DNA of 64,000 nt from Terriglobus albidus (GTDB taxonomy: Bacteria > Acidobacteriota > Terriglobia > Terriglobales > Acidobacteriaceae), in contig NZ_JAGTAS010000055.1 of assembly GCF_025685425.1 (NCBI RefSeq), positions 62,001-126,000 of the forward strand, given 5' to 3'. The number at the start of each line of letters is the position of its first letter. Position 1 is the stretch's first letter. Made by a program: the position numbers and the translations under genes. The notes below the pieces were generated by a model, which was not told the DNA's origin, searched no databases, and saw nothing but the letters and a program-made list of their open reading frames with translations. Positions 19,537 through 44,898 of the stretch are shown piece after piece.

Positions 19537-19555
19537 GCAGCGGCCCGTACGCAAT

Positions 19556-22327: not shown

Positions 22328-23788
22328 ATGCTAAGGACTAAAGTAGTCGCAATTATTACAAGCTCAAGGCCATTTATTCAGACTGCCGAGGCTACGCTTC
22401 AATCCGAGGGACATCTTGTTGAGGTCTTCGAATCCCTGAAAGAAGCCTTGGCTGCTTGCCAGACACGCCATTTCGATGCTGTCATTTTGGACGTCTCCGC
22501 ACGTCCTCCCAGAGATGAGACTTCTTTGTCGAGACTTAGTCAGCAGGTAGGTGCACATCGCATTTGGCTTGCGCCCCCCCTCGGTCTGAGCCCGTGGGTT
22601 CAGGATGCAGAGACACTTGGGATCCATCATTTTCTCAAAGTCCCGGTTCAACGCCCTGAACTCGAAGAGATGCTTACGGAACTCTCCCAGTTAACGGAGG
22701 AGTTTGAAGTTACTCGCGACGTAGATCATGACGTCCGGCCGACTTCTGGACGCTATCATCTGGAAGAGATAAGCCATAACCGCTACTTCCTTGCGGCCTC
22801 ACCGGCCATGATGCGAATCTATGAGAACATTCGCCTCCTCGCCGCGGTCGATGTTCCTGTATTGATCCTTGGGGAGAGCGGCGTCGGTAAGGATGTCGTC
22901 GCCAATCTCCTTCACAAGCACTCTCGCCGCTCGTCGCACACCTTCAGCTCCGTCAATTGTGCCGCTCTCCCGCCGGACCTTCTTGAAAGCGAACTCTTCG
23001 GCTATGAGGCGGGCGCCTTTACCGGAGCCGTCAAGGCGAAACCCGGTAAGTTCGAGCTGGCCGATCGGGGAACCCTCCTGCTGGACGAAATCGGTGAGAT
23101 GAGCGCTCCGATGCAGGCTAAGTTGCTTCATGTCCTGCAGGACGGCCGTTACTCCCGTCTGGGTGCAAGAACCGTCTCAACCGCTGATGTCCGGGTGATC
23201 GCTGCCACCAACGTCAATATCGAGAATGCAATCACAGATAAGCTCTTTCGCGAAGACCTTTACTATCGCATCAGCGCCTTCACGATCAATATTCCTCCGC
23301 TGCGCGAACGGCGGGAGGAGATTCCGTTCCTTGTGGAACAGATGGTCAAGCGGCAGGCCGCTCAGTTCCAGCAAGATCCGGTCTATATCTCACCGCGCAT
23401 CGTCTCTTTGCTACAGGAATACCACTGGCCCGGAAACCTGAGAGAGCTCTCGAATGCCGTCATACGCATTCAGATTCTCAAGGGTAGCGATGCCTCGGTC
23501 GCCGATATCGAGAGCAAGGTGATGGGACGTGCCTCCATCACCGAGCAGACCTGCCCGACGATTGAAGGAGAACCCGATGCCAGCGTAACTCATATGCGCT
23601 CCATCGTCCGGAACTTCAAAGACCAGACTGAAAGCCGGCTGATACAGCAGGCCCTGGAGGCGGCTCGCTGGAATCGCAGGCACGCCGCCGCGGCATTGCG
23701 TATCAGCTATCGCACTTTGCTGTACAAAATCGACCAGTATCACCTGAAAGAAGCTAGAGCTCCAATGCGGTTTTCGACGGGTCACTAA
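22328..23788 (+). CDS. Sigma-54-dependent activator, NtrC-like, with degenerate receiver
   Basis: The protein has 486 residues. The N-terminal receiver-like fold (about 5-125) keeps an Asp in FDAVILDV and a Lys in HFLKVPV. The paired acidic residues normally found after the first strand are replaced by TSSRP, so magnesium binding and phosphorylation are doubtful. The AAA+ domain is intact: Walker A GESGVGKD, the sigma-54 contact loop GAFTGA, Walker B GTLLLDEIGE and a Fis-type helix-turn-helix at the end (AARWNRRHAAAALRISYRTL). It should open sigma-54 promoters. It sits next to the EPS locus, where three sigma-54-like promoters are visible, so EPS control is the likely role. Start ATG 22328 follows a GTG in the same frame at 22325. 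Confidence 0.93.
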   Translation: MLRTKVVAIITSSRPFIQTAEATLQSEGHLVEVFESLKEALAACQTRHFDAVILDVSARPPRDETSLSRLSQQVGAHRIWLAPPLGLSPWVQDAETLGIHHFLKVPVQRPELEEMLTELSQLTEEFEVTRDVDHDVRPTSGRYHLEEISHNRYFLAASPAMMRIYENIRLLAAVDVPVLILGESGVGKDVVANLLHKHSRRSSHTFSSVNCAALPPDLLESELFGYEAGAFTGAVKAKPGKFELADRGTLLLDEIGEMSAPMQAKLLHVLQDGRYSRLGARTVSTADVRVIAATNVNIENAITDKLFREDLYYRISAFTINIPPLRERREEIPFLVEQMVKRQAAQFQQDPVYISPRIVSLLQEYHWPGNLRELSNAVIRIQILKGSDASVADIESKVMGRASITEQTCPTIEGEPDASVTHMRSIVRNFKDQTESRLIQQALEAARWNRRHAAAALRISYRTLLYKIDQYHLKEARAPMRFSTGH

Positions 23789-23834
23789 GGGATATCGCAG
23801 ACGCGGGTACCCCGCTTATCGGTTTCACGAAGAC

Positions 23835-23888
23835 TGGGCTTTAGCGCTGGGCTTTCCTGACGAAAGGAAGGCGCAGGGCTAAAGCCCA
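23835..23888. repeat. Long imperfect hairpin between convergent genes
   Basis: TGGGCTTTAGCGCTGGGCTTTCCT and its partner ending GCTAAAGCCCA form a stem of roughly 24 bp with about three mismatches and a short GACG loop. It lies between the convergent activator and epimerase genes, so it can act as a bidirectional terminator. GGGCTAAAGCCC-type palindromes recur in Acidobacteria as intergenic repeats (from memory); only one copy is in this window. Confidence 0.6.
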
Positions 23889-23933
23889 TTTATGTTTATC
23901 GATGCAGTGTGGTCGATAGAGCGCAGATGAACT

Positions 23934-24941
23934 CTAGACTAGAGCGGCTTTGAGGCTTCCACTCGCCTCGAGTTGTTCCTTCTGCCACGCGATCGTCTTC
24001 ATCAAGCCGATCGCTAGTGGTACTTTGGCTCGGAAACCAAACAGGCGTTCTGCCTTCCGGATATCCGGAACGCGACGGCGGACATCCTCGTACTTACGTC
24101 CTGCGATCTCGTTATAAGGGACGAATGTAATACGCAGCGATCCATCTTTTCCACTCAAGCGATGGATGCTGTGTGCCAGCTCCAGGATTGAGATCTCAGT
24201 ATTGTCTCCAATGTTGACGATTTCACGATTGGCATTCTGGGATTCTGCGGCAGCTACGATGCCACGTGCGGTGTCCTCAACAAACGTAAAGGATCGTGTC
24301 TGCAGGCCATCACCATGGATGGGTATGACCTCCCCGCGCAGGATGGCGCTGATGAAGACAGACTGGGGGCCTCCCCACCAGCTCAGGTTTTGACGCGGCC
24401 CGTACGAACCAAATATCCGCAGAACAGTCGCATTGATCCCCGCTTCTTCCGCCATGGCAAGCACCAGGTGCTCGTCGAACATCTTCGAAGCAGCATAGGC
24501 CCATCTCGCCACCGTCGCGGGTCCAAGAACTGAATCTCCATCCTCGGAGAAAGGTACCCTTGGATTTTTGCCATACACATCCGAGGTGGATGTAATCACA
24601 AAGCGAGCGTTGTTCTCGACCGCGATCTGCAATGCGTTCTGAGTCCCATGGGAGTTCACCATCAGTGTCTTCGTCGGGTTTTCGTAACGCGGGATCTTGT
24701 ATGCAGCCAGATGAAGGACAATATCGACCTTCCCCGCGGCCTGCCGCAAGGCGTCGTAATCACATACATCCGCGGCGTGAAATTCAAATCCAGGATATTC
24801 CCTCGCGGAGTCAAGGTTTGCGGAGTTCCCGTGTGACATGTCATCTACAGCAATGACGTCGTAACCTTTTCCAAGCATCAGATCGGTTACATGCGATCCC
24901 AGGAAGCCGGCAGCCCCCGTAATAAGTACCCGTTTTGTCAT
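23934..24941 (-). CDS. NAD-dependent sugar epimerase/dehydratase (extended SDR)
   Basis: The protein has 335 residues. The Rossmann motif GAAGFLGSH is at the N-terminus and the catalytic YxxxK is in WAYAASK, with STSDVYG supplying the conserved Ser/Thr. ILRGEVIPIHGDGLQTRSFT is typical of UDP-sugar epimerases and decarboxylases. The likely substrate is a UDP-hexose, a UDP-N-acetylhexosamine or a uronic derivative; the sequence does not decide. Its start overlaps the stop of the 2-epimerase gene (24938-24941), so the two are coupled. It is the last gene of the minus-strand nucleotide-sugar operon. Confidence 0.9.
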   Translation of the reverse strand: MTKRVLITGAAGFLGSHVTDLMLGKGYDVIAVDDMSHGNSANLDSAREYPGFEFHAADVCDYDALRQAAGKVDIVLHLAAYKIPRYENPTKTLMVNSHGTQNALQIAVENNARFVITSTSDVYGKNPRVPFSEDGDSVLGPATVARWAYAASKMFDEHLVLAMAEEAGINATVLRIFGSYGPRQNLSWWGGPQSVFISAILRGEVIPIHGDGLQTRSFTFVEDTARGIVAAAESQNANREIVNIGDNTEISILELAHSIHRLSGKDGSLRITFVPYNEIAGRKYEDVRRRVPDIRKAERLFGFRAKVPLAIGLMKTIAWQKEQLEASGSLKAALV

Positions 24942-26050
24942 GCAGCCCTCACCATTTCCATAATTCGACCGATGCTACGTTCTCCTGCATGGCCTTCACC
25001 AAACTCGACCAGATCCCTGGGCTCCTGGATACTATTGCGCCCGAAGCGTGCCAGGCGACGAGCTCCATCCAGGATTTTTCCTGCCTCATTGCCGACCAAT
25101 ATGTTCCACCCCCCGTGCAGCGTCTCAATCCACTCGGTCTCGTCTCGGAGAGTCAAGCATGGTACCCCCATGAAGTAGGCTTCTTTCTGCAGCCCACCCG
25201 AATCCGTCATGATGAACCGGGCATTTCGCTGTAGCGCGAGCATATCCAGGTATCCGACCGGCTCGATCACGTTCACATGATCCGCAAGAAACAGATCAGA
25301 ATTGCTCGTTCCGAGCAGACGTTTCCGCAGCCGCGGATGCATCGGAAAAATAATGGGAACATCCATCTTCTTTAAAGCCTCAAGAATGCCATTAAGCCGT
25401 TCAGGCTCATCCGTCGCTTCGGCTCGATGAATAGTAACCAGAGCATATTCCTGGGTTCCCAAGTGAAGCTCACGCTGTATTGCGGACTGCTCATTCGTGC
25501 CGAAGAGGCTGACAGCATCGAGCATGACGTCTCCTACAAATGCTGCCCGCTCGCCGAGTCCTTCCATCTCTAACTGCTTTACGGCATTGGGCGTCGGGCA
25601 CAGAAGAAGGTCTGATATATGGTCTGCAACGATTCGGTTTAGTTCTTCCTGCATCATCCGATTGAAGCTGCGCAATCCAGCCTCAAGATGAATTACAGGA
25701 ATATGAAGCTTCGCTGCCGCCAGCACAGATGCAAGGGTCGAATTTGTATCGCCGTACGCGATCACAGCGTCCGGCCTCCACTCCAATAGTTCCGCTTCCA
25801 CTCCGGCAAGCATGAGCGCGGTCTGAATTCCAGGAGTCCCCATCCGGACGCTCTCCAGCAATCTGGGCTTGGGCAGACCCAGTTCCTGAAAAAATACCGA
25901 AGACATCATCGGATCGCTGTGCTGCCCTGTATGCAGCAGCCTGTGTTCTATTGCACCGAAGTGTTCACGGTTATACTCTTCGATCGCCCTTACAAGGACT
26001 GCCATCTTCACGAATTGCGGCCGCGTTCCACCTATGGAAAGTATCTTCAC
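24938..26050 (-). CDS. UDP-N-acetylglucosamine 2-epimerase family (WecB/WbpI-like)
   Basis: The protein has 370 residues, the usual length. Conserved motifs are present: GTRPQFVKMAVL, LLHTGQH with MMSSVFFQELGL, IHLEAGLRSF and TDSGGLQKEAYFMGVPCL. It inverts C2 of UDP-GlcNAc or of a UDP-GlcNAc(3NAc) uronic derivative to the manno form. Neighbouring dehydrogenase, acyltransferase and oxidoreductase genes make the WbpI-type substrate plausible, but sequence by eye cannot separate it from WecB. GTG start; the start overlaps the stop of the acyltransferase gene by 4 nt. Confidence 0.92.
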   Translation of the reverse strand: MKILSIGGTRPQFVKMAVLVRAIEEYNREHFGAIEHRLLHTGQHSDPMMSSVFFQELGLPKPRLLESVRMGTPGIQTALMLAGVEAELLEWRPDAVIAYGDTNSTLASVLAAAKLHIPVIHLEAGLRSFNRMMQEELNRIVADHISDLLLCPTPNAVKQLEMEGLGERAAFVGDVMLDAVSLFGTNEQSAIQRELHLGTQEYALVTIHRAEATDEPERLNGILEALKKMDVPIIFPMHPRLRKRLLGTSNSDLFLADHVNVIEPVGYLDMLALQRNARFIMTDSGGLQKEAYFMGVPCLTLRDETEWIETLHGGWNILVGNEAGKILDGARRLARFGRNSIQEPRDLVEFGEGHAGERSIGRIMEMVRAA

Positions 26051-26847
26051 GGTGTTTCTCCCGGCTTGGTCTCGCTCTCGTATGGCAACAACTGATCAAT
26101 ATCTACCGGGCGGACAACTCTGGCCGGAGCCCCCATGACAACCATGCGCGCCGGGACATCGCGCGTTACCACGGACCCCGCTGCAACCAGAGCATCTTCC
26201 CCGATCAACACTCCCGGCAAAATCGTGGCGTTCGCAGCAACGCGGGAGCCTTTCTGCATGGTCACTCCGCCGAAGTGTTTGAACCTCTCCTGCGTGCGTC
26301 CGACAAAATTGTCATTGGTGAAGGTCACCTCGGGAGCGACAAAACACTGGTCTCCGATTGCGGATTTCGCGGTGATGTAAGCCCCGGTTTCAATCTTGCA
26401 GCACCGCCCTACTCTGACCTGGTTTTCAATGGCAACTCCTCTGCCAATGATGCTGAGTTCGCCAATGGCAGTGTCTTCACGCACGCTGGCAAAGTCAGCA
26501 ATCAGAACCCCATCTTCGACAATCGCCCCTGAATAGATCACGGCGTTGCTCCCAACCAGACAACCGTTACCCAAAAAGGCCGGCCCCAGTTCCTTGGTTC
26601 CAGTCATAGCGCTGGCTTTTGATTTCAGTGGCTTCTTGCCGATAATTGCCCCGTCATCGATCCTGACGTCCTTACCAATAGTGGCGTGATCATGAAGAAC
26701 GACATGATTGCCAATAACCGTGCCTTCCCCGATACTGACGTTCTGGCCCACAACTACATTCCTGCCGAAATGCACGTTGGGGTATCTTCTGTTTCTTTCC
26801 TGCTCCAGGAGAAGAGCATTTTCAGATGCAACAAATTCAAAACTCAT
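26047..26847 (-). CDS. Hexapeptide-repeat (left-handed beta-helix) acyltransferase, WbpD-like
   Basis: The protein has 266 residues. Many hexapeptide turns are visible (VVVGQNVSIGEGTVIGNHVV, IGKDVRIDDGAIIGKK, VEDGVLIADFASV, VAPEVTFTNDNFVG), ending in VAAGSVVTRDVPARMVVMGA, the usual C-terminal cap of sugar N-acetyltransferases. It probably acetylates an amino group of a UDP-sugar. It is longer than WbpD-type enzymes because of an extra N-terminal set of coils. I start at 26847 (MSFEFVASEN), with AAGG upstream; the frame stays open to 27438 but that part is antisense shadow of the next gene. It is operonic with the 2-epimerase. Confidence 0.88.
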   Translation of the reverse strand: MSFEFVASENALLLEQERNRRYPNVHFGRNVVVGQNVSIGEGTVIGNHVVLHDHATIGKDVRIDDGAIIGKKPLKSKASAMTGTKELGPAFLGNGCLVGSNAVIYSGAIVEDGVLIADFASVREDTAIGELSIIGRGVAIENQVRVGRCCKIETGAYITAKSAIGDQCFVAPEVTFTNDNFVGRTQERFKHFGGVTMQKGSRVAANATILPGVLIGEDALVAAGSVVTRDVPARMVVMGAPARVVRPVDIDQLLPYESETKPGETP

Positions 26848-26900
26848 AGGACCTTCTATCTTTCCAACGGATCGTAACGATCCTGCCGGACGTGCGTAAA

Positions 26901-27740
26901 CTAACGACTTCCAACAATCTTCATCATTCGCCCGACATCCTCTCTCTTCTCCTGCCCGTCCTGCTTTGCCTCGGGCTTGCAGAAGGACGGATAGCCATTG
27001 TTTCTGGCGAAGACACAATCCAGAGCCAATTTCAAGTGATCTCTGATTGTGCGAAGAATTCGCATTTTGCTGCATCCAGTCGTACGTCGATGCAGCGTCA
27101 TTGGCACCTCGTGGATCCGATAGCCAAGATAGGATGCATTCATCAGAATCTCCACCGTAGACACAAATCCGTTGCTCCGGAAATGCGCTCGCCTGATGAA
27201 CGAACCGCGATATGCGCGGAACATGCTCGTATAGGTGTAGAGCTTGACCGGCGAAATCATGCGATAGAGCCGTGAACAATAACGGCTGAGAGCATACCGC
27301 CAGGGCGCGACCCCCTCGACGGAACCTTGCGGATGATATGGAGATGCCACGACTACATCCGCCTTCCCATCCACGATCAAATGAACCATCTGGGCAAGCT
27401 GGTCCGCGCGGTAGCTGCAATCTGCATCCAGAGTGCAAATAACATCGGCGCTGGCTGCGATCTCAAATCCCGTGCGGAATGCTGCGCCAATACCGAGATT
27501 GCGGGAGTGTGAAACTACTCTGTAGGAGGCCCCGTACGGTGCCGTCCGTGGCAGAAGCGCCACGGTACGGTCCGTACTTCCGTCGTCGATAAAGAGGTAA
27601 AACGTGATGTAGCGATCCTGCAGACCCCGCTGTAACTCCGCAAGCCGGATCCGAAGAACCTGCAGTGATTCCTGTTCATTACATACGGGTATGACTACAG
27701 CAACTCGAGGACGGCTAAGGCTATGTCGCGTGTCTGGCAT
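26901..27740 (-). CDS. Glycosyltransferase family 2, DPM1-like
   Basis: The protein has 279 residues. The GT-A fold shows VAVVIPVCNEQESL, FIDDGSTDRT and ICTLDADCSY (metal-binding DxD). No membrane segments follow the catalytic domain, so it is a soluble or peripheral enzyme of the dolichyl-phosphate-mannose-synthase type that adds a sugar to a lipid carrier. Start 27740 (MPDTRHSLSRP) is preceded by GGAGAG; the longer frame to 27899 runs into the dehydrogenase gene. It lies between the dehydrogenase and acyltransferase genes in the same operon. Confidence 0.88.
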   Translation of the reverse strand: MPDTRHSLSRPRVAVVIPVCNEQESLQVLRIRLAELQRGLQDRYITFYLFIDDGSTDRTVALLPRTAPYGASYRVVSHSRNLGIGAAFRTGFEIAASADVICTLDADCSYRADQLAQMVHLIVDGKADVVVASPYHPQGSVEGVAPWRYALSRYCSRLYRMISPVKLYTYTSMFRAYRGSFIRRAHFRSNGFVSTVEILMNASYLGYRIHEVPMTLHRRTTGCSKMRILRTIRDHLKLALDCVFARNNGYPSFCKPEAKQDGQEKREDVGRMMKIVGSR

Positions 27741-27774
27741 TCGAGCTCTCCTGTCTATCCCCGAGGCAGCTTGC

Positions 27775-29142
27775 TTAACAACGAACGATCTTGGAAGACA
27801 CGATCCCGCGGGTGGCGTTACGCGTGTCCACGACAAGTTGTGAATCGCGCACGATCGCCTGGTAGTCGTAGTCGGAGTGGTCAGTGGCAATGACGACACA
27901 GTCGTAGTCAGCCAGACGATCCAGGGGGGTACACGTCATGCCAAGGTCGTAATGCCGGCCGCGGCCGACAGTTGGGAAGTAAGGGTCGTTGTAGTCGACG
28001 CTTGCCTTCTCTTCCTGCAGCATCTCGATAATCTCGAGTGATGGAGACTCACGCAGATCGTCGATATCCTTCTTGTAAGCAACACCGAGAACCAGGATCT
28101 TTGCCCCATTCATCGATTTGCGATGGGCGTTGAGGGCCTCTGAGACCGAGTGCACCACGTGACGAGGCATTCCCTCGTTGATCTCGCCGGCCAGCTCAAT
28201 AAAGCGGGTGTGGAAGTTCCACTCCCGGGCTTTCCAGCTCAGGTAGAAAGGATCGATCGGGATGCAGTGACCACCAAGGCCAGGGCCGGGATAGAACGGC
28301 TGAAAGCCGAACGGTTTGGTCGCGGCGGCATCGATAACCTCCCAGATGTCGATTCCCATCCGGAGTGAGAGCAGCTTGAGTTCGTTTACCATCGCGATGT
28401 TTACGCACCGGTAAATGTTTTCAAGCAGCTTGGTCATCTCTGCCGCCTGCGTCGATGAGACCGCAACAGTGCGGCCAAAAATATTCCCATAGAGTGCGCC
28501 TGCCAGCTTTCCGGCAATCGCGCCATGCCCGCCAATCACCTTCGGGATATCCCGGCGAGCTACTGTGTTATTCCCCGGATCCTCACGTTCAGGCGAGAAC
28601 GCTACATAAAAGACGTTCGCGTCCTCATCCATACCCCGCTCATAGGCCTGAAGGCCGTCGCGGCAGCCGCGGTCCAGAATGGGGATCAGCACCTCTTCCG
28701 TTGTTCCGGGATAGGTCGTACTTTCCAGAACAACCAATTGGCCGCGAACCAGCCACGGAGCAATGGACTCAGCAGTCTTCTGAATGAACGACAGGTCCGG
28801 ATCGCGATGATCCGTCAGCGGTGTGGGGACACACATGATAATGGCATCCTGTTCGCTGATCTTGCTGAAATCGGTCGTTGCACGGAATCCCTGCGAACGA
28901 GCCATCTCAATTTCCGTCGCAGGAATGCGGAAGATATAACTCTTCCCATCTTCCAACTGTTCCACTTTGCGGGCGTCAATATCGAAGCCCTGCACTGTAA
29001 AGCCCGCTTCCGATAGAAGAAGGGACAGGGGGAGACCAACATATCCAAGGCCGATAACACCGACCTTTGCGGTCTTCGCTTGGAGCTTCTCGAGCTGACG
29101 CTCCGCTTGACGAGTTTGCGTGGAGACGGTTACTAAGTTCAT
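27775..29142 (-). CDS. UDP-N-acetyl-D-glucosamine 6-dehydrogenase, WbpA-like
   Basis: The protein has 455 residues. It shows Rossmann VGVIGLGYVGLPL, CVPTPL, the substrate-domain helix STQAAEMTKLLENIYRCVNI and the catalytic cysteine in GLGGHCIPIDP. PFYPGPGLGGHCIPIDPFYL is the WbpA/WbpO form, which favours UDP-GlcNAc (or GalNAc) over UDP-glucose; that reading is from family knowledge. It makes the UDP-uronic acid. The ATG at 29142 lacks a ribosome site and lies only about 3 nt after the start predicted from a sigma-54 promoter at 29156-29172; the frame continues to a TTG at 29172 inside that promoter. Confidence 0.92.
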   Translation of the reverse strand: MNLVTVSTQTRQAERQLEKLQAKTAKVGVIGLGYVGLPLSLLLSEAGFTVQGFDIDARKVEQLEDGKSYIFRIPATEIEMARSQGFRATTDFSKISEQDAIIMCVPTPLTDHRDPDLSFIQKTAESIAPWLVRGQLVVLESTTYPGTTEEVLIPILDRGCRDGLQAYERGMDEDANVFYVAFSPEREDPGNNTVARRDIPKVIGGHGAIAGKLAGALYGNIFGRTVAVSSTQAAEMTKLLENIYRCVNIAMVNELKLLSLRMGIDIWEVIDAAATKPFGFQPFYPGPGLGGHCIPIDPFYLSWKAREWNFHTRFIELAGEINEGMPRHVVHSVSEALNAHRKSMNGAKILVLGVAYKKDIDDLRESPSLEIIEMLQEEKASVDYNDPYFPTVGRGRHYDLGMTCTPLDRLADYDCVVIATDHSDYDYQAIVRDSQLVVDTRNATRGIVSSKIVRC

Positions 29143-29155
29143 GCCGCGTAGACAA

Positions 29156-29172
29156 TGCACGGGATGTGCCAA
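29156..29172 (-). promoter_or_regulatory. Sigma-54-like promoter, minus strand
   Basis: On the minus strand the sequence reads TTGGCACATCCCGTGCA. GG and GC are separated by exactly 10 nt, and TTGGCAC is a perfect -24 box. Predicted transcription would begin near 29145, only 3 nt before the dehydrogenase ATG, so the message would be nearly leaderless. Confidence 0.55.
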
Positions 29173-29187
29173 ATCCTCTGGCCTGAC

Positions 29188-29304
29188 TTAGAGCATTCCC
29201 CCTGTTGCTGGGTATCCCGGAAGAGCGTGCAGCGGCGTTTTCATTGCGGAAAACGCCCATAAATGTGGAAGCCCTACACTGCACCTACGGGGAAAATGCT
29301 CCCG
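29188..29304. repeat. MITE-like 117-bp element, copy 2 (inverted relative to copy 1)
   Basis: Reverse-complementing this stretch gives a close match to 19420-19536 over the full length, including the central GGGCGTTTTCCGCAATGAAA and the GGGATACCCAGCAACAGGG end. One terminus keeps TTAGAGCATT; the other has lost its last bases (GCTCCCG in place of GCTCTAA). It sits between the two divergent EPS promoters. Confidence 0.8.
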
Positions 29305-29416
29305 CGATATCGCTGGGGCAGCATCCTGTACCGGCTTATCTCCACTATCGTGCCCCTCTTTTGGGGTTCTGATCCCCTCTCGGAGATGGGAAAAGTATGC
29401 AAAGAGTTGCGCGTAA

Positions 29417-29444
29417 CCTGCCATTTTCGGGGCAAAATAGCAGG
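29417..29444. promoter_or_regulatory. 28-bp inverted repeat, candidate activator-binding site
   Basis: CCTGCCATTTT, a 6-nt spacer (cggggc) and AAAATAGCAGG match at 10 of 11 arm positions. Its centre is about 70 bp upstream of the predicted plus-strand sigma-54 start site and between the two divergent promoters, a plausible place for an enhancer-binding protein. No second copy was found near the third promoter. Confidence 0.4.
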
Positions 29445-29473
29445 CTTCTGCTCCCTCCAAGGTGCGATCCGAA

Positions 29474-29490
29474 TTGGCATAGAGATTGCT
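29474..29490 (+). promoter_or_regulatory. Sigma-54-like promoter before the plus-strand EPS operon
   Basis: TTGGCATAGAGATTGCT has GG and GC exactly 10 nt apart and matches the -24/-12 consensus well (TTGGCA and TTGCT). Predicted transcription begins near 29501, giving a 29-nt leader that contains AAGGAG 9 nt before the ATG at 29530. Confidence 0.65.
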
Positions 29491-29529
29491 CCTGTGTCTG
29501 TATGCGGTTCATACAAGGAGACATCCACG

Positions 29530-30651
29530 ATGATGGGAGCTCGATTAAAGGTAGGAGTTGTCGGTCTGGGCGCCTGGGGCTGTAACGTCGCCCGGTGCCT
29601 CTATGAAATGCCGGAATGCGACCTGGTAGTCTGCAGCGATCTGAACGAAGGCCGCTGCTCGATGGCGCGGCACAACTGGAATGTGCAAACCGTTGCATCA
29701 CTTGATGAAATGCTCGCGCAATACCCCGAGATCGGAGCTGTGGTCATCAGTTCTCCAGCTACGACCCACTACAGCCTCGCTAAGAAGGCGCTACTTGCCG
29801 ACAAAGACGTCTTCGTAGAGAAGCCCTTTACCCTGAACGTCCGGGACGCCGAGGAGCTATCGGCACTGGCTGCGTCGAAAGGGCGGATTCTGATGGTTGG
29901 GCATCTCCTCGAATATCATCCTGCGGTCAATCGGATCCGCGAGATCATTCAGTCCGGCGACCTGGGTGAGATCTACTACATCTACACGCAGCGGGTAAAT
30001 CTCGGCCGCATTCGTGGTGATGAGAATGCCCTCTGGAGCTTTGCACCGCACGATCTCTCTCAGATTCTCTACATACTCGGTGAGGATCCAGTCGATGTGA
30101 GCGCCCGGGGACAATCGTTTATCCAGGACGGCATTGAAGACGTTGTCTTCCTTAGCCTGTTCTTCGCGAATCGCCGGATGGCCCATATTCACATCTCGTG
30201 GCTCGACCCACACAAGATGCGCAGCACGACTGTTGTGGGCAGCAAGAAGATGCTCGTCTTCGATGACGCGGCTGCTTCCGAGAAACTCCGGATCTACGAC
30301 AGCGGCGCGCAGAGCCCAGCTACATGCTCTTACGGCGAAGCGATCCAGGTGCGTTTCGGCGATATTCAGATACCCCATCTGAGCGCGACCGAGCCGCTCA
30401 AACTTGAGTTCCAGCATTTCATTAACTGTGTCGAGCAGCGCATCACACCAAGGAGCGACTCTCAAGACGGTCTGCGTGTCGTCCGCATTCTGGAAGCGGC
30501 TCAAAAATCCCTGGAAATGGATGGTCTCCCCGTATCGCTTCACTCGGGCGCCGTTTCCAAAGCACTCCATCCACCGCAAACCATCAACCGGCAATGGACG
30601 CCGAGCCTACCGATGCTCCCGGCCATGCCGGCAGTCGCGGCGCATTCCTAG
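29530..30651 (+). CDS. Gfo/Idh/MocA oxidoreductase, WbpB/WlbA-like
   Basis: The protein has 373 residues. It shows Rossmann VGVVGLGAWGCNVARCL, the EKP motif in DVFVEKPFTL, and the sugar-binding half with MVGHLLEYHPAVNRI, LWSFAPHDLSQILYILG and SWLDPHKMRSTTVVG. The last two resemble UDP-N-acetyl-glucosaminuronate 3-dehydrogenases (WbpB/WlbA), which oxidise C3 before amination. Unlike the exported oxidoreductase at 13143 it has no signal peptide. The start at 29530 is set by AAGGAG at 29515-29520; the frame opens earlier without support. It is the first gene of the plus-strand EPS operon and divergent from the WbpA-like gene. Confidence 0.85.
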   Translation: MMGARLKVGVVGLGAWGCNVARCLYEMPECDLVVCSDLNEGRCSMARHNWNVQTVASLDEMLAQYPEIGAVVISSPATTHYSLAKKALLADKDVFVEKPFTLNVRDAEELSALAASKGRILMVGHLLEYHPAVNRIREIIQSGDLGEIYYIYTQRVNLGRIRGDENALWSFAPHDLSQILYILGEDPVDVSARGQSFIQDGIEDVVFLSLFFANRRMAHIHISWLDPHKMRSTTVVGSKKMLVFDDAAASEKLRIYDSGAQSPATCSYGEAIQVRFGDIQIPHLSATEPLKLEFQHFINCVEQRITPRSDSQDGLRVVRILEAAQKSLEMDGLPVSLHSGAVSKALHPPQTINRQWTPSLPMLPAMPAVAAHS

Positions 30652-30675
30652 ACGGGCAGAAATTGCAGGATCTTC

Positions 30676-31059
30676 ATGCGAATGATTCGCTACAAGACAG
30701 AGATGTTGGTGGGAGGCTCAGTGGCTATGGCTGCGGCCGGGCAGATACTGATCAAAGTTGGCCTTTTGGGGAAAGGTAGACTTGGTCTATTGGCCCTCCA
30801 TTGGCCACTGAGCCTCCCATGGGGGGTAGTGATCGGACTTTGCGTCTACGGAGTGGGAACACTGCTCTGGTTCGCTGCGGTCGCGCAAAAGAACATCAGT
30901 TACCTCTACCCTCTCGCTGCCAGCAACTACGTTTTGTTGGGACTTTTGGGCCACTATCTTCTGCATGAATCGATGGGGCCTGGGCGCTGGACCGGTATTA
31001 CCGTCATGGCGGCCGGCATTGCACTACTGTCCAAAACCGATAGAGGAATGGTCAGATGA
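30676..31059 (+). CDS. Small EamA/SMR-like membrane protein, first of a pair
   Basis: The protein has 127 residues and about four hydrophobic segments: MLVGGSVAMAAAGQILIKVG, VVIGLCVYGVGTLLWFAAVA, YLYPLAASNYVLLGLLGHYL and GITVMAAGIALLS. The GQILIKVG and YLYPLAASNY motifs are those of half-size EamA proteins such as ArnE/ArnF, which flip undecaprenyl-linked sugars. Its stop overlaps the start of a second such protein (31056-31059), so a heterodimer is likely. Substrate unknown; in this locus a lipid-linked sugar is the natural guess. Confidence 0.8.
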   Translation: MRMIRYKTEMLVGGSVAMAAAGQILIKVGLLGKGRLGLLALHWPLSLPWGVVIGLCVYGVGTLLWFAAVAQKNISYLYPLAASNYVLLGLLGHYLLHESMGPGRWTGITVMAAGIALLSKTDRGMVR

Positions 31060-31427
31060 ATGCCGATACCACGCCATCGCTGGCATATTCCTGGGGAATA
31101 CTCGCCGCAAGTATCACCTCTGGGTCGTTTGCACAGATTACCCTCAAACATCTGACCAACACCCTTGCCAAAAGGCAGAACGCGGGCCGTCTTATCGCCA
31201 TTCCATGGCTCGCTCTCTGGGTCATTCTGTTTGGACTGGCAACTGTGTGCTGGCTCATCGCGCTACGCCATCTCGATATCTCGTACGCTTATCCCCTCCT
31301 CAGCCTCGGATACGTTCTGGTAACAAGCCTGGCAGCCCTTCTGCTGGACGAACATGTATCCCGGTCGCACTGGCTGGCAATTGGACTGATTACATGCGGC
31401 GCTGCACTCGTCGCGGGGAGTATCTGA
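31056..31427 (+). CDS. Small EamA/SMR-like membrane protein, second of a pair
   Basis: The protein has 123 residues and about four hydrophobic segments: ILAASITSGSFAQITLKHL, LALWVILFGLATVCWLIAL, SYAYPLLSLGYVLVTSLAAL and LAIGLITCGAALVAG. It shares the SYAYPL motif with its partner but is clearly divergent from it. Translation is coupled to the preceding gene through ATGA, and the oxidoreductase gene starts 1 nt after its stop. The pair resembles ArnE/ArnF in size and arrangement. Confidence 0.8.
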   Translation: MNADTTPSLAYSWGILAASITSGSFAQITLKHLTNTLAKRQNAGRLIAIPWLALWVILFGLATVCWLIALRHLDISYAYPLLSLGYVLVTSLAALLLDEHVSRSHWLAIGLITCGAALVAGSI

Positions 31428-31428
31428 C

Positions 31429-32838
31429 ATGCAACAAGGCACATCGCGTCCTTCCCATATTGCCGTTGTGGGCGGCGGTTTTACAGGCATGGTATGCGCC
31501 TTCCGTCTACTGCGCGCCGGATACAAGGTAACGATCCTGGAAAGCCGGTCGGACCTGGGCGGCCTGACCAGCACGCACGACTTCGGCCCATTCCGTTGGG
31601 ACAGGTTTTATCATTGCATTCTTACCTCGGATAAAGCCTTGCTGGGCCTTCTTACCGACCTGGAACTGAGTGATCAGCTCCGGTGGACCAAGACCGAAGT
31701 TGGCCTGTTCTCCCAGGGCGCCTTGCACAAGATGACCAGCCCGGTAGATCTACTGCGTTATCGTCATCTTTCACTCGCATCAAAGCTCCGCCTGGCGCTG
31801 ATGACCCTGTATGTAACAAAGATCAAGGATGGGCTCGCGCTGGAATCCATTCCGTTGTCTCAGTGGACGCGTCACATCTTCGGCGGGAAGGTATACGAGC
31901 AAATCTGGGAACCGCTCTTCCGCTGCAAACTCGGCGAGTTGCGCAGGTATGCATCGGCGGCATTTCTCTGGGGTACGATCGTCCGGCTCGCGTCGACACG
32001 ACAGCGTGGTCCGGGACAACAGGAGCAACTCGGCTATATTCGCGGGGGGTATAGCACCGTTTTTCAGAGACTGCAGCAGGTCGTTGTGTCGCTTGGGGGC
32101 TCGACCAATACGGGAGTGAAGATCCGCTGTATCTCTTCCAGGAACGCTACGCAGGAAGGACGTGTCCGCGTTAAAGCCTGTCACAAAGATATGTACTTTG
32201 ATGGCGCCATTCTAACGACTCCCAATAAGGTCATCGCCGATCTGCTCGACACGGAAGATGCCGCTTACAAAGCCCGTCTCGGGCAGGTAATGTACCTCGG
32301 GATTATCTGCGTTGTGCTCGTTTTAAAAAAGCGCCTAAGCCCGTTCTACGTAACGAACGTGACAGAAAAGATCGGCTTCACAGGCGTCATCGAAATGACG
32401 AACCTGATCGATCCAGTACAGGAGACTAACAATCGCCACCTCGTCTATCTGCCCCGCTACACTGCTCCCGACGATGCCTTGTTTGAAGCCTCTGACGATG
32501 CAGTCTGGCAGCACGTTTGGGCTGATCTTTCGCGGATGCACCCCGATCTCAAGGAAGCAGACATTGAACATCGTTTTGTCTTCCGCGAGCGAGTCGTCCA
32601 GCCCGTACCAACGTTAGGGTATTCCGAGATTCTGCCTCCCGCACGGACACCGGTTGCCGGCGTTTATGTTGCCAATACCTCTCAGATACTGAATGACACG
32701 CTCAACAACAACGCAATGACGTCCATCGCGCAGGCTACATGCGACGAACTTATGAAAGATATCCCGCTGCAGCAGCAGGTTGATACGTCAATGCCGAAAG
32801 GGACGGAAGAGGCGCTCAGCCCCGCTTTCGCACGGTAG
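31429..32838 (+). CDS. NAD(P)/FAD-dependent oxidoreductase (amine-oxidase/UGM-like)
   Basis: The protein has 469 residues. The N-terminal dinucleotide motif is VVGGGFTGMVCAFRLLRAGY, then LESRSDLGGLTS; YIRGGYSTVFQRL and the C-terminal GVYVANTSQILNDTLNN fit the flavin amine-oxidase/protoporphyrinogen-oxidase fold, to which UDP-galactopyranose mutase is related. No membrane segment. In polysaccharide loci such enzymes modify lipid-linked or nucleotide sugars, but the reaction here cannot be named. It follows the EamA pair with a 1-nt gap. Confidence 0.8.
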   Translation: MQQGTSRPSHIAVVGGGFTGMVCAFRLLRAGYKVTILESRSDLGGLTSTHDFGPFRWDRFYHCILTSDKALLGLLTDLELSDQLRWTKTEVGLFSQGALHKMTSPVDLLRYRHLSLASKLRLALMTLYVTKIKDGLALESIPLSQWTRHIFGGKVYEQIWEPLFRCKLGELRRYASAAFLWGTIVRLASTRQRGPGQQEQLGYIRGGYSTVFQRLQQVVVSLGGSTNTGVKIRCISSRNATQEGRVRVKACHKDMYFDGAILTTPNKVIADLLDTEDAAYKARLGQVMYLGIICVVLVLKKRLSPFYVTNVTEKIGFTGVIEMTNLIDPVQETNNRHLVYLPRYTAPDDALFEASDDAVWQHVWADLSRMHPDLKEADIEHRFVFRERVVQPVPTLGYSEILPPARTPVAGVYVANTSQILNDTLNNNAMTSIAQATCDELMKDIPLQQQVDTSMPKGTEEALSPAFAR

Positions 32839-32848
32839 GTGTCCCACT

Positions 32849-33052
32849 ATGCACATCCCCATCCTCCCTATCCAGGCCATCCTCCAAGCTATCAATCATC
32901 TATTGCTTGGCCGTCCGGTGATCTCGCTTCTTCTGATCTCCGGATGCCTGTTCCTCATCTCTGAGGTAATCCAACGTGCCAAACACAGCCAGCCTCCTGT
33001 GCCGACAAAGACACAGATGCTCCATCAAGGCACAGAAGACGGCTCCGTATGA
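32849..33052 (+). CDS. 67-residue single-pass membrane protein
   Basis: Not recognised. It has one strong hydrophobic segment at about 22-42 (PVISLLLISGCLFLISEVI) and a polar tail. Its stop overlaps the start of the deacetylase gene by ATGA (33049-33052), which argues that it is translated. The ribosome site is weak (AGGTG, about 10 nt upstream). A longer frame from 32780 begins inside the oxidoreductase gene and is less likely. Confidence 0.5.
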   Translation: MHIPILPIQAILQAINHLLLGRPVISLLLISGCLFLISEVIQRAKHSQPPVPTKTQMLHQGTEDGSV

Positions 33053-33813
33053 AACTTTCGTCAACCATTGTTCCGCACGTCCTGGCCTATCACGAGATCG
33101 ACGACCAGCACTCGGCGGATGTCTATTGCATCTCTCCCGATATATTCATGAGCCACATGTGGGCGGCCACCCATGAAGCAGAACAGATCAAACGATCGGT
33201 TCGTATTACGTTTGACGACGGCCATGTGTCTCACATGCGATGGGCGGTTCCCATTCTGAATGAGCTCGGCGTGCAGGGACACTTCTTCATCCCTACGGCA
33301 TGGATGGGATCGAAAGACGGATATATCAATTGGAATGACGTGCGGTCGATCGCCGAACAAGGACATCGGATCGGCTCGCACGGAGCTACTCACGTTTTTC
33401 TATCAGTGTGCACCCCCTCCCAGCTGGAGCAGGAGGTTCGCCATTCCAGGCTGATTCTGGAAGACAAGATCGGCCGGGCTGTCACATCAATTTCAATGCC
33501 TGGTGGGCGTTGGAATGAAGCCGTGATTCGCGCCTGCGCTGTAGCGGGATACGAAGAGGTCTATACCTCGGAGCCCGGCATGTACCGCGCCGCTACAGTC
33601 GAGAACAACATGCAGCTTCCCGCTGTCATTGGAAGATTTGCGGTACGCCGTAAGACCTCACTCCGCACGATTGCCGCCTACCTTGAAGGCGATCTTTTCG
33701 CTGTCAGCCGGCTTCGCGGTATGTATCTGTTCCGTCAACTTGCTAAGCGCATGATCGGAGACAGGGGCTATCAGCATATCTGGTCTTCCCTGTTTCGGGC
33801 GATGCCAGGCTAG
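33049..33813 (+). CDS. Polysaccharide deacetylase (NodB/CE4 family)
   Basis: The protein has 254 residues. The catalytic motif RITFDDGHVSHM gives the Asp pair and GSHGATHVFLS gives the zinc-binding HxxxH. PGGRWNEAVIRACAVAGY is the usual motif 3. There is no signal peptide, so it is likely cytoplasmic, perhaps acting on lipid-linked intermediates. Start is coupled to the small membrane-protein gene. Confidence 0.9.
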   Translation: MKLSSTIVPHVLAYHEIDDQHSADVYCISPDIFMSHMWAATHEAEQIKRSVRITFDDGHVSHMRWAVPILNELGVQGHFFIPTAWMGSKDGYINWNDVRSIAEQGHRIGSHGATHVFLSVCTPSQLEQEVRHSRLILEDKIGRAVTSISMPGGRWNEAVIRACAVAGYEEVYTSEPGMYRAATVENNMQLPAVIGRFAVRRKTSLRTIAAYLEGDLFAVSRLRGMYLFRQLAKRMIGDRGYQHIWSSLFRAMPG

Positions 33814-33828
33814 TGAGGAGTGTGGTGT

Positions 33829-35001
33829 ATGAGGGTCCTGCAACTTGTCTCAAGCTCCGGCTTCTACGGTACCGAAAGGATGATCTGCCTCCTGTCGGCG
33901 GCACTTCAACGCTCCGAAGCCGAGGTCTATATCGGTGTATTCAATGGCTCGAGCTCATCCTGTTCGCGGTTTGTCCAGGAGGCTGAACGTCAGAACCTGC
34001 AGGTGCTCGATCTCGCCTGCAAAGGCCGGTGGGATCTTAGAACCATCGTGCGTCTGGCCAGATGGCTGCGCAAGAACGATATCGAAGTGCTGCACACCCA
34101 TGGCTATAAGGCGAATATCTACGGGCTGGTCGCTGCCCGCCTCGCCGGCTGCGCGCTTGTTGCAACCTGTCACAACTGGACAAACCGTACCGCGTCCCTT
34201 CGACAATACGCGGCGCTCGATCAATTTCTCCTCCGCCACTTTGATCGCGTGGTAGCCGTATCGCAAGGCGTCCTGTCGAATCTTCGACGTGCCGGCGTGC
34301 CCGGCCGGCGCATACGGCAGATCCCTAATGGCATTGAGGTCGCCGCATACAAAACCGCAGCACAAAACTCCGACAAGCCTCGGCATATAATCCTGGGTTG
34401 CCTTTCGAGGCTTTCGAAGGAAAAGGGTGTCGACGTCCTGGTCTGGGCTCTTCCCAAACTATTGGCAACCTATCCTGAACTGCAGTGCGTCGTCGCGGGA
34501 GAAGGTCCCGAAAGGGAGCGCCTGCTTGCACTGGCGGCCGAGCTCTGCGTGTCTCACGCTCTTCACTTACCTGGGTTCTGCGACGACACCGCCCGCTTTT
34601 TGTCGCATTGCACACTTGTCATACAACCTTCGAGAATCGAAGCGATGCCTCTGGCAGTACTGGAAGCAATGGCCTCTGAAAAACCCATCATCGCCTCCGC
34701 GGTCGGCGAAATTCCTCGTCTGCTGGAAGGCGGTAAGGCAGGGCTGCTCGTACCTCCTGGTAATCCGGACATGTTAGCAGCCGCCATTCTGAAGCTACTT
34801 TCTTCACAGGAACAGCAGCAGGCACTGGCGGCTCGTGCGGCAGAAAAGGCAACTGCGTGTTTCGACGTCTCGGTCATGCTTGCCGGCTATCTCTCGACGT
34901 ACAAGGAAGCAATGGCAAAGCGTCATCTGCTGATGCGAGTGAGTCCTTCGGGGAAAGCAGGCGCATATTATGAGCGTGGTACCGATCGCAATATCGCATA
35001 A
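33829..35001 (+). CDS. Glycosyltransferase family 4/1
   Basis: The protein has 390 residues and a GT-B fold: an N-terminal half with LQLVSSSGFYGTERMICLLS and HTHGYKANIYGLVAARL, and a C-terminal half with LGCLSRLSKEKGVDVLV and SRIEAMPLAVLEAMASEKPI, the EX7E motif of retaining GT4 enzymes. Start ATG 33829 has GAGGAG 8 nt upstream. It overlaps the next transferase gene by 32 nt. Confidence 0.92.
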   Translation: MRVLQLVSSSGFYGTERMICLLSAALQRSEAEVYIGVFNGSSSSCSRFVQEAERQNLQVLDLACKGRWDLRTIVRLARWLRKNDIEVLHTHGYKANIYGLVAARLAGCALVATCHNWTNRTASLRQYAALDQFLLRHFDRVVAVSQGVLSNLRRAGVPGRRIRQIPNGIEVAAYKTAAQNSDKPRHIILGCLSRLSKEKGVDVLVWALPKLLATYPELQCVVAGEGPERERLLALAAELCVSHALHLPGFCDDTARFLSHCTLVIQPSRIEAMPLAVLEAMASEKPIIASAVGEIPRLLEGGKAGLLVPPGNPDMLAAAILKLLSSQEQQQALAARAAEKATACFDVSVMLAGYLSTYKEAMAKRHLLMRVSPSGKAGAYYERGTDRNIA

Positions 35002-36334
35002 GGCGATGGAAGGCACACAGCCGGACGGTTCATCCTTGCGCGTTTGGCTGAGCGATCCGCTATGCTTTACCCCTTGGTATACAGCCGCTCTCGCCCGTGC
35101 ACTCGCGTCGGCAAATGTCTCCCTTCGTTTGCTCAGCGCCAGCGTCTCTCGCGAACCTGAGTATTTCGCCCAGGTGAGTCTCTCTCCTGACCCTGGCCCT
35201 TTTCACTTTGACGATCTGGCAAATGGCTGGCCATCCTCACTACGGCGTGTCTTGCGCTGCGCCGCCGCCATCTCGAACTCCATTGCACTCGCGAGAACAC
35301 TGGAGAGTACTCCCTCAAAGCGCCCCGATATCCTCCACCTGCAGCAGCTTCCTCTGTTAAATCACAATATCGGGAGTGACTTTGAGTTACTCGCGGCCGC
35401 CAGGAGATGCGGTATCCCGGTCGTACACACCGTTCATAATCTGCTTCCGCACGACACCGGGAATCGCCGGGAAAACATATTCGGGCGCCTCTATCGCAGT
35501 GTGGATCACCTGATCTGTCACTCGCGGGATATCGCAGATACTCTGGAGGCTCGATTCGACATACCTTCCAACTTCATTTCCGTCATACCGCATGGGCCCC
35601 TCTTCGAATCCCGGGAACATATCAATCCCAGCGATGCCCGTGCAGCACTGAAACTTCCTCAAGATCGTCCAATTGTTCTCTGGCAGGGAGTGATGGCGAC
35701 CTATAAAGGGTTAGACCTTCTGCTCCAGGCATGGAGGCTCACTGCGCCTCGGTGGAGAAATCGATCGGCGGCTATGCCCCTGCTGGTGATCGCAGGAACG
35801 GGCTCATCGGAAGTTGAGGCCGCGGTTCAGGCAGCAGCCACCGCGCTTCCGGATTCTGTCCGAGCAGACATTCACTACATCCCCACAAACCGGCTGCCTT
35901 CCTACTACCACGCGGCCGACCTGCTGGTGTATCCCTATCGTTCGATAACGACCAGCGGCGCTTTGCTGACCGGCCTGTGCTATCGGAAGCCAATTATCGC
36001 CTCCGATCTACCTCCATTCCGGGAGTATCTGGAACCAGGCGAGAACGCACTGCTGGTGCCTCCCGGCAACGTTGCAGCGCTTTCCTCCGCACTTGAAGAA
36101 GCGATCGGCGGCATCGCAAAGTTACACCAGCAGCCGCGATCCGAGTCAAGCAAAAACATCTATCTCGGCCTCCTTTTGGGAGCAGCGAACAACCATCGCA
36201 GGTACGTCGGTTGGGATCAGATCGCGCGCCAAACGATTGGCGTGTATCGGGCGACAATTGCCACTAAAGCTGCGCAGCCGAAAGTATGCAAGACCCTGCA
36301 CACATTTCCGAAGGCATCCTTCCGCAAAGCCTGA
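34970..36334 (+). CDS. Glycosyltransferase family 4-like
   Basis: The protein has 454 residues and a GT-B fold: N-terminal VHTVHNLLPHD and VDHLICHSRDIADTL, C-terminal VLWQGVMATYKGLDLLLQAW and PYRSITTSGALLTGLCYRKP. The EX7E motif is weakened in this last segment, so donor and mechanism are uncertain. Start 34970 lies inside the preceding gene with GGGGAAAG about 15 nt upstream; ATG at 35006 is an alternative. It is the last gene before the third sigma-54-like promoter. Confidence 0.88.
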   Translation: MSVVPIAISHKAMEGTQPDGSSLRVWLSDPLCFTPWYTAALARALASANVSLRLLSASVSREPEYFAQVSLSPDPGPFHFDDLANGWPSSLRRVLRCAAAISNSIALARTLESTPSKRPDILHLQQLPLLNHNIGSDFELLAAARRCGIPVVHTVHNLLPHDTGNRRENIFGRLYRSVDHLICHSRDIADTLEARFDIPSNFISVIPHGPLFESREHINPSDARAALKLPQDRPIVLWQGVMATYKGLDLLLQAWRLTAPRWRNRSAAMPLLVIAGTGSSEVEAAVQAAATALPDSVRADIHYIPTNRLPSYYHAADLLVYPYRSITTSGALLTGLCYRKPIIASDLPPFREYLEPGENALLVPPGNVAALSSALEEAIGGIAKLHQQPRSESSKNIYLGLLLGAANNHRRYVGWDQIARQTIGVYRATIATKAAQPKVCKTLHTFPKASFRKA

Positions 36335-36369
36335 TATCTGCCAGAAACGCCCTCAAAAGGAGGGGGGAT

Positions 36370-36386
36370 TTGGCTTTTTGATTGCT
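36370..36386 (+). promoter_or_regulatory. Sigma-54-like promoter before the wza-like gene
   Basis: TTGGCTTTTTGATTGCT has GG (36372-36373) and GC (36384-36385) exactly 10 nt apart, with TTGGC and TTGCT boxes. Predicted start near 36397 leaves a 19-nt leader containing GGAAGG at 36401-36406, 9 nt before the ATG at 36416. Confidence 0.65.
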
Positions 36387-36415
36387 CTCTTTCAAGCATC
36401 GGAAGGATGGCCATT

Positions 36416-37057
36416 ATGAAGCCCAGGTCTCATACCATTTGGTGCTTACGAGCCGTGTCTGCGGCTCTTCTCTGCACCGGAATCTGCTATGGACAACAGC
36501 GAGTGGCAGATGCAGGCAAGACCAACGCTCCCAGCGTGCCGAAAGCCGACCCTCACACTCCCGCTGCCGTCGCCACGCCACAGTACACAATTGGAAGCGG
36601 GGACGTCCTCAACATCCAGGTCTGGAAGGAAAAAGACCTGAGCCAAATAGTCGTTGTCCGCCCCGATGGCAAGATCTCACTCCCATTGCTCGGCGAAGTT
36701 TATGTCGTTGGCAAAGAGCCGTCCCAGTTGGAAGACCTGATCCAAGCCCGCCTCCAAACGATGGTGGTGGAACCGCGTGTGACGGTTACAGTGGCCGAGA
36801 TACACAGCAGAATGGTCTACATCACCGGGGAGATTGCACGTCCCGGCGCCTACCCATTGAATACGCCGATCACCGTGCTTCAGCTGATCGCACAGGCCGG
36901 CGGTCTCACTGAATTCGCTTCCAAGAAAAAGATTCATGTACTCCGCGCAGGCGGGCCCGCCGGCGGCATCTGGATGAATTACAAGTCTCTCCTTCAAGGG
37001 TCCGATCCGAACCGTAATTTGCAGCTCAATCCTGGCGACACAGTGGTGATCCCGTGA
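36416..37057 (+). CDS. Polysaccharide export protein, Wza-like (Poly_export + SLBB)
   Basis: The protein has 213 residues. A signal peptide (IWCLRAVSAALLCTGICYGQ) is followed by the Poly_export domain (YTIGSGDVLNIQVWKEKDLS, VVVRPDGKISLPLLGEVYV) and one SLBB domain (VYITGEIARPGAYPLNTPIT). It forms the periplasmic/outer-membrane export channel ring. It is shorter than E. coli Wza and I see no good lipobox, so it may rely on the neighbouring barrel for outer-membrane passage. The start is chosen for GGAAGG 9 nt upstream rather than the ATG at 36407. Confidence 0.93.
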   Translation: MKPRSHTIWCLRAVSAALLCTGICYGQQRVADAGKTNAPSVPKADPHTPAAVATPQYTIGSGDVLNIQVWKEKDLSQIVVVRPDGKISLPLLGEVYVVGKEPSQLEDLIQARLQTMVVEPRVTVTVAEIHSRMVYITGEIARPGAYPLNTPITVLQLIAQAGGLTEFASKKKIHVLRAGGPAGGIWMNYKSLLQGSDPNRNLQLNPGDTVVIP

Positions 37058-39799: not shown

Positions 39800-39800
39800 G

Positions 39801-40616: not shown

Positions 40617-40663
40617 CTCTGTAGCAAGGCTATCGAACGTGACCAACAGATAAGGGAACCCCC

Positions 40664-44878: not shown

Positions 44879-44898
44879 GAGGAAAGGGCGAGGGGCTT

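Follow-up and report, generated by a model that had tools for sequence, protein, structure and literature searches.

Which regulator governs the large polymer locus carried by a 64,000-nucleotide stretch of the Terriglobus albidus genome (contig NZ_JAGTAS010000055.1, positions 62,001 to 126,000, hereafter the window)? An original prediction had proposed that three sigma-54-like promoters before polymer genes, together with an NtrC-type activator encoded beside them, place the whole system under a dedicated sigma-54 activator. Our comparative sequence analysis suggests that the polymer locus is very probably one sigma-54 regulon, controlled by this neighbouring activator through an enhancer dyad and the three promoters, which are listed here in window coordinates:

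29156-29172, minus strand: sigma-54 site of the UDP-sugar 6-dehydrogenase (UGDH) cluster, TTGGCACATCCCGTGCA, exact GG-N10-GC, predicted transcription start at about 29145.
29474-29490, plus strand: sigma-54 site of the Gfo/Idh dehydrogenase cluster, TTGGCATAGAGATTGCT, exact GG-N10-GC, predicted transcription start at about 29501.
36370-36386, plus strand: sigma-54 site of the export cluster, TTGGCTTTTTGATTGCT, exact GG-N10-GC, predicted transcription start at about 36397.

As originally described, the three signatures are exact, correctly oriented and located each in the gap before a polymer gene, encoding UGDH, the Gfo/Idh dehydrogenase and the export protein, respectively; GG-N10-GC is accompanied by TTGGCA/TTGC-like boxes at all three. 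A −24/−12 matrix, written from sigma-54 consensus frequencies and not built from these sequences, gave scores of 16.5 (UGDH), 17.5 (dehydrogenase) and 13.0 (export), which rank second, first and sixth in the window. The genome (6.10 Mb in 58 contigs) contains a single rpoN match. The two leaders with ribosome sites that had been proposed are also recovered, with predicted lengths of about 19 nt (export, GGAAGGA) and about 29 nt (dehydrogenase, AAGGAG); the third, that of UGDH, would measure only about 0-4 nt.

Are these sites more than chance −24/−12 matches before genes run from ordinary sigma-70 promoters? All three fit TTGGCN7KTGCW, a pattern that matches the genome at 50 places, against 59 for a reversed control, and three of 50 random points fall within 7.2 kb with P = 0.07. 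Because the genome count does not exceed the reversed control, score alone proves nothing and was discarded as proof of the sites. The claim that chance was unlikely for all three thus draws no support from the matches themselves, the pattern being no commoner genome-wide than the background. It is position and conservation, not sequence score, that make the three predicted promoters convincing. The locus is syntenic in all nine genomes compared, i.e. the window genome, G031, G096, G129, G167, G195 and G290, which belong to one genus, as well as G052, in which it is split over two contigs, and G060, the genome of Granulicella mallensis, which among the named relatives encountered is the closest (its dehydrogenase is 69% identical). 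The equivalent gap holds a correctly oriented sigma-54-like site in 27 of 27 regions (three gaps, nine genomes), although the genomes amount to fewer than nine independent tests because several genus genomes are closely related (G129 with the window genome; G031, G096 and G167 together). When the best match per region was compared with shuffles of the same DNA, 26 of the 27 reached P < 0.05 and 24 reached P < 0.01. In a seven-genome alignment, the intergenic DNA is poorly conserved except for the boxes, a dyad and the gene-adjacent ends. Such conservation of all 27 sites in otherwise diverged intergenic DNA, along with the near-fixed spacing to the dyad and the family-wide enrichment of the composite pattern presented below, makes chance matches an extremely improbable explanation.

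What could an activator bind near these promoters? The original prediction overlooked a candidate enhancer dyad, which is found at the following positions:

29396-29413, no strand assigned: 18-bp enhancer dyad, TATGCAAAGAGTTGCGCG, 60 bp from the plus-strand promoter and 223 bp from the minus-strand promoter.
36285-36302, no strand assigned: 18-bp enhancer dyad, TATGCAAGACCCTGCACA, 67 bp upstream of the export promoter.
29682-29699, no strand assigned: second dyad, within the dehydrogenase gene, TGTGCAAACCGTTGCATC.

Two of the promoters have an upstream site at looping distance (60 and 67 bp), and the UGDH promoter can make use of the first dyad too, from a distance of 223 bp. The loose consensus TRTGCAR-N4-YTGCRYR fits exactly 12 of the 18 promoter copies of the nine genomes. 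The dyad matrix was first trained on seven sites and the test was then repeated with a matrix derived only from the two copies of the window genome; this two-copy matrix detected the dyad in 16 of 16 promoters of the relatives, always in the 200 bp that precede the sigma-54 site and each time at P < 0.01 relative to shuffled sequence. All nine genomes have 67-70 bp between dyad and sigma-54 site at the export promoter; at the dehydrogenase promoter the gap is 57-61 bp in seven of them, 91 bp in G052 and 127 bp in G060. Under a strict pattern, the genome has six dyads, two of them at the polymer locus. The other four (C20, C21, C57 and C58) were rejected as regulon members, having no sigma-54-like site scoring at least 10.5 within 20-600 bp downstream, as was a weaker dyad of the window (56791-56808, score 14.4) that lacks a sigma-54-like site. 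G129, G031 and G167 also carry a dyad within the dehydrogenase gene, about 390 bp from the UGDH promoter. The copy at 29682-29699 could be a second enhancer.

The dyad might alternatively be the operator of an unrelated regulator, for instance a LacI-type repressor, standing near sigma-54 promoters by accident. LacI-type operators share TGCAA...TTGCA, and similar dyads stand close to −35-like boxes, with no sigma-54 site, both at C21:36687 and in G060, there downstream of the activator gene. However, a central CG is typical for LacI operators and none of the 18 promoter dyads has one, while the distance from dyad to −24 element hardly varies and the pair of elements is enriched (150 matches against 12, see below). 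We consider an accidental operator very improbable. Near-perfect dyads of the form TGTGCAA-N4-TTGCACA were also observed at L226 (8688-8705) and L227 (5003-5020), where sigma-70-like boxes lie next to them but no good sigma-54 site does; a separate regulator may use a similar dyad at these places.

Is the arrangement peculiar to this locus? We searched for a composite pattern consisting of the dyad, 53-83 nt and a sigma-54 box, the spacing having been chosen from this lineage. It matches twice in the window genome, both times at the polymer locus. In 300 genomes of the family we found 150 matches distributed over 108 genomes, compared to 12 for reversed controls, whereas 99 genomes from other families in the same class yielded 6 matches against 4. 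A composite site is present in 84 of 169 genomes in which the activator has a strong relative (E ≤ 1e-95) and in 24 of 131 without one (Fisher P = 1.7e-8, a value that is only a guide because the genomes are related). Among 19 sampled genomes of the genus, it occurs in 7/7 with an activator orthologue of at least 67% identity and in 1/12 of the others. We viewed the downstream genes at 30 of the composite loci. Judging by its first residues, the next open frame encodes an Rrf2-like regulator at ten of them (one checked by Pfam); four have a protein resembling the XrtA-associated ATPase next (the one compared with NCBIfam stayed under the cut-off of the model), and two a PEP-CTERM protein (L254 and L256, both over the PF07589 cut-off, one narrowly). 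Several of the 30, situated within long reading frames, are probably due to chance. The ten loci at which the composite element precedes an Rrf2-family gene (L233, L234 and L237-L244) belong to one other genus.

Which protein would bind the dyad? The best candidate adjoins the locus:

22328-23788, plus strand: sigma-54 activator (bacterial enhancer-binding protein, bEBP) with a degenerate receiver, an AAA+ domain with GAFTGA and a Fis-type helix-turn-helix (HTH).

A GTG at 22325 immediately precedes its ATG at 22328. The earlier statement that an activator with an intact GAFTGA loop is encoded beside the locus is borne out, since GAFTGA, Walker A and B, FREDLYYRI and the Fis-type HTH are all intact (PF00158, 217.6 bits; PF02954, 45.1 bits). 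Its NtrC-type label fits the AAA+ and HTH parts and fails for the receiver, which scores 21.1 bits against PF00072, under the cut-off of 30.2. TSS stands in place of the acidic pair and the T/S position differs, whereas the phospho-acceptor Asp55 and the Lys remain, so that the full set of a phosphorylatable receiver (acidic pair, Asp, T/S, Lys) is not found. Loss of the acidic pair makes ordinary phosphorylation control of the activator unlikely. Most of 32 aligned activators, the window's included, have a normal receiver (e.g. LLVDDEP, LLDLLMP, TKPF), L066 being without most of it; decay was seen in the window genome, both G031 copies, G052 and G060, and partially in G019 and G040. No kinase was found beside the window activator among the two neighbours searched, a CadC-like protein and the epimerase, while a HisKA/HATPase kinase is encoded directly upstream of activator relatives in three other genera. 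In FleQ, the residues R and N after Walker A serve cyclic di-GMP; a FleQ-like pocket was rejected for the window activator, whose two residues there are N and L.

The activator adjoins the locus in 7/7 locus-carrying genomes of the genus and in G052, and lies a few genes away in G060 and G159. A clear orthologue of the short second activator known from other genera is missing from G031, G052, G060, G096, G167 and G290 (best-scoring match 41-46% identical), all of which keep the dyad, and for this reason the neighbouring activator is the best candidate dyad binder. G031, G096 and G167 have a second copy of this neighbour away from the polymer locus, 67-68% identical to that of the window, and in G031 the second copy (L182, 9846-11321) has a sigma-54-like site about 430 bp upstream. 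The CadC-like regulator (19556-21694, winged helix and PD40 propeller) is divergent from the activator and is found beside it in 7/7 genus genomes examined; it may control activator expression.

Several results weigh against the proposed regulon. By score alone the three sites equal the genome background, and the weakest of the 27 conserved sites, that of the export gene in G060, reaches only 7.4 bits (P = 0.065). As many as 85 of the 169 genomes with a strong activator match have no composite site, and the 24 of 131 that have the site without such a match, some of which reflect chance or incomplete assemblies, point the same way. Most of 31 export loci lack a sigma-54 site in the 900 bp upstream: a score of at least 10.5 was reached at 7/31, compared to 2/31 for reversed sequence and 5/31 on the other strand, and a dyad of at least 12.5 at 7/31 compared to none for reversed sequence. 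With only 7/31 such loci, sigma-54 control of the export gene would be lineage-specific and not general in the family. Finally, the genome encodes about a dozen bEBPs, so another one could bind the dyad.

This last point leads to the strongest competing explanation, according to which the promoters and dyads are real and the neighbour is a bystander to a different bEBP. The 32 aligned activators resemble one another in the HTH region, and in the window genome the product of C28:605487 shares 53% identity with the short second activator, which renders the elimination of the latter less clean here. This explanation nevertheless has to accommodate the adjacency of the neighbour to the locus in eight genomes and its proximity in G060 and G159, the six dyad-keeping genomes without a clear orthologue of the short activator, and the co-occurrence of composite sites with relatives of the neighbour. 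We regard it as unlikely, though less so than the two considered above, and retain the neighbouring activator as the probable regulator.

How might the regulon work? We propose that the activator would bind the dyads at 29396-29413 and 36285-36302 as an oligomer and loop to RNA polymerase-sigma54 held closed at the three −24/−12 promoters, which ATP hydrolysis through the GAFTGA loop would open in an rpoN-dependent manner. The dyad between the divergent promoters would serve both. Three transcripts are predicted, covering the UGDH-side cluster, the dehydrogenase-to-GT4 (glycosyltransferase family 4) cluster and the export-to-polymerase cluster. Because no kinase adjoins the activator and its receiver is decayed, activity is probably set by the level of the activator, a partner or a ligand. 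The assembly would descend from a module found throughout the Acidobacteriaceae, in which a kinase-linked, receiver-bearing activator acts on surface genes, including PEP-CTERM genes in some members. The original idea of a dedicated activator for the whole locus has gained support from the conservation of the sites in nine genomes, the shared dyad, the restriction of the composite pattern to the locus, the adjacency of the activator and the lack of a clear second-activator orthologue in six dyad-keeping genomes; that the locus is switched on by this protein stays a prediction.

What would the UGDH transcript look like? The distance from the −12 GC to the UGDH ATG is 14 nt in three genomes, including this one, and 13 nt in the six others. 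Since transcripts from sigma-54 promoters start about 12 nt after the GC, the mRNA would begin 0-4 nt before the ATG. UGDH of this genome has no in-frame ATG, GTG or TTG in codons 2-49; codon 50, the next possible start, lies beyond the beginning of the dehydrogenase fold, and the first residues are conserved (MN in 8/9 genomes). The UGDH transcript is accordingly predicted to be nearly leaderless. A literature search for a leaderless sigma-54 precedent found none in the passages retrieved, which treat leaderless genes and sigma-54 separately. A repeat separates this promoter from the shared enhancer:

29186-29301, no strand assigned: dispersed repeat of about 115 bp, between the shared enhancer and the UGDH promoter.

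It recurs at about 20 further places, some overlapping, in 306 kb of loci from the same genome, including positions 19423-19537 of the window, with 79-91% identity (94% for one short piece). It is missing at this place in the close relative G129. With the repeat, the enhancer lies 223 bp from the UGDH promoter, compared to 105-111 bp in six relatives when the same dyad is scored. A 24-bp palindrome at 29233-29256, GGCGTTTTCATTGCGGAAAACGCC, was rejected as an enhancer because it is part of the dispersed repeat and missing here in G129.

Which genes would the three promoters serve?

23934-24941, minus strand: nucleotide-sugar epimerase/dehydratase, last gene of the UGDH-side cluster.
24938-26050, minus strand: WecB-type UDP-GlcNAc 2-epimerase (TIGR00236, over cut-off).
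26047-26904, minus strand: hexapeptide (NeuD-like) acyltransferase; the open frame extends to 27438.
26901-27899, minus strand: family 2 glycosyltransferase.
27775-29142, minus strand: UGDH, first gene of the minus-strand cluster, ATG at 29142.
29530-30651, plus strand: Gfo/Idh/MocA dehydrogenase, ATG at 29530 preceded by AAGGAG; similar to UDP-GlcNAc 3-dehydrogenase, below the model cut-off.
30676-36334, plus strand: two EmrE/ArnE-like proteins, an FAD oxidoreductase, a polysaccharide deacetylase and two GT4 glycosyltransferases.
36407-37057, plus strand: polysaccharide export protein (TIGR03027-like, below cut-off).
37054-54783, plus strand: rest of the polymer locus, with a protein without family hit, a chain-length regulator, a tyrosine kinase, a BACON-domain protein, a DUF2079 protein, Wzx-like and Wzy-like proteins, glycosyltransferases, a deacetylase and a TIG-domain protein.

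The 5′ limit of the acyltransferase gene is approximate, because strong conservation in relatives begins near residue 180. The genes at 30676-36334 are presumed to lie on the dehydrogenase transcript, with a 210-bp gap at 32839-33048. The export protein likely starts at the ATG at 36416, after GGAAGGA, with 36407 as an alternative.

What does this arrangement mean beyond the locus? On balance we lean slightly towards the view that it represents a family-wide acidobacterial counterpart of the proteobacterial PEP-CTERM box, with its own enhancer code and control over surface genes, which in this lineage would have moved onto polysaccharide genes and been freed from its kinase, one of the promoters giving a leaderless, conserved and enhancer-dependent mRNA. 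The module supplies a regulon that can be tested, with a defined enhancer and a candidate activator. It ties the control of polysaccharide genes to that of PEP-CTERM genes in bacteria other than Proteobacteria, and it provides a natural gradation of activators, from those with a linked kinase to those without, that would use a related DNA code; a leaderless sigma-54 transcript, if true, would unusually bring together two mechanisms that have each been studied well. Soils harbour many Acidobacteria, for which exopolysaccharide has been suggested as a means of protection in this habitat (abstract of PMC5259719). A search of the open-access literature listed no described sigma-54 regulon for Acidobacteria, and the main text of an omics paper on Granulicella WH15 mentions neither RpoN nor sigma-54.

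How, then, does the module compare with known systems? The architecture of the activator, with AAA+ domain, HTH and GAFTGA, is that of NtrC-family bEBPs (4l4u, 1ny5; FleQ), from which it departs by the loss of the receiver acidic pair. The residues after Walker A, N and L, also set it apart from FleQ, with R and N. Like BerB, the sigma-54 activator for Bep exopolysaccharide in the passages available of PMC9684580, it is encoded near a polysaccharide locus. Sigma-54 control of surface polysaccharide genes is already a known general theme, given that exopolysaccharide and other surface genes are generally linked to sigma-54 in the available passages of Francke et al. 2011 (PMC3162934), whose main text contains neither the word acidobacter nor solibacter and whose passages include no such module. 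In Aquincola, the RpoN-dependent PEP-CTERM gene pepA has a mapped −24/−12 promoter and a predicted upstream enhancer (PMC9850573, passages available); enhancer and promoter are thus alike and pepA is linked to polymer and flocculation, but a PEP-CTERM protein gene is controlled there, and sugar-nucleotide, glycosyltransferase and export genes here.

The closest parallel is the PEP-CTERM box itself. According to Haft et al. 2006 (PMC1569441), a 17-nt motif ending in TTTACA, a spacer of 62.8 ± 10.6 nt and a sigma-54 site precede PEP-CTERM genes together with PrsR and PrsK, and among the species discussed only in Proteobacteria. Both systems place a spacer between an activator motif, 17 nt long in the box and 18 in the module, and a −24/−12 site, with a spacing of 57-69 bp in the seven genus genomes compared to the 62.8-nt average, and both have an NtrC-like, Fis-type activator near polysaccharide genes. 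In contrast, 0/18 promoter dyads here end in TTTACA. The window activator scores 278.4 bits against the PrsR model TIGR02915, below its cut-off of 502.6, and is not PrsR by that test; three relatives with intact receivers score 311.6-356.6 bits. The window activator also differs from PrsK/PrsR in its degenerate receiver and in having no kinase among the two neighbours searched. Exosortase (PF09721) gave 0 matches in this genome among 11 candidates scored, and one kinase of the relatives in other genera, scanned in NCBIfam, showed no TIGR02916 among the best 25 of 72 families. Elsewhere in the family, the module does precede PEP-CTERM genes (L254 and L256). With the same geometry and a different enhancer code and regulator, the acidobacterial module would work like the PEP-CTERM box but outside PrsK/PrsR.

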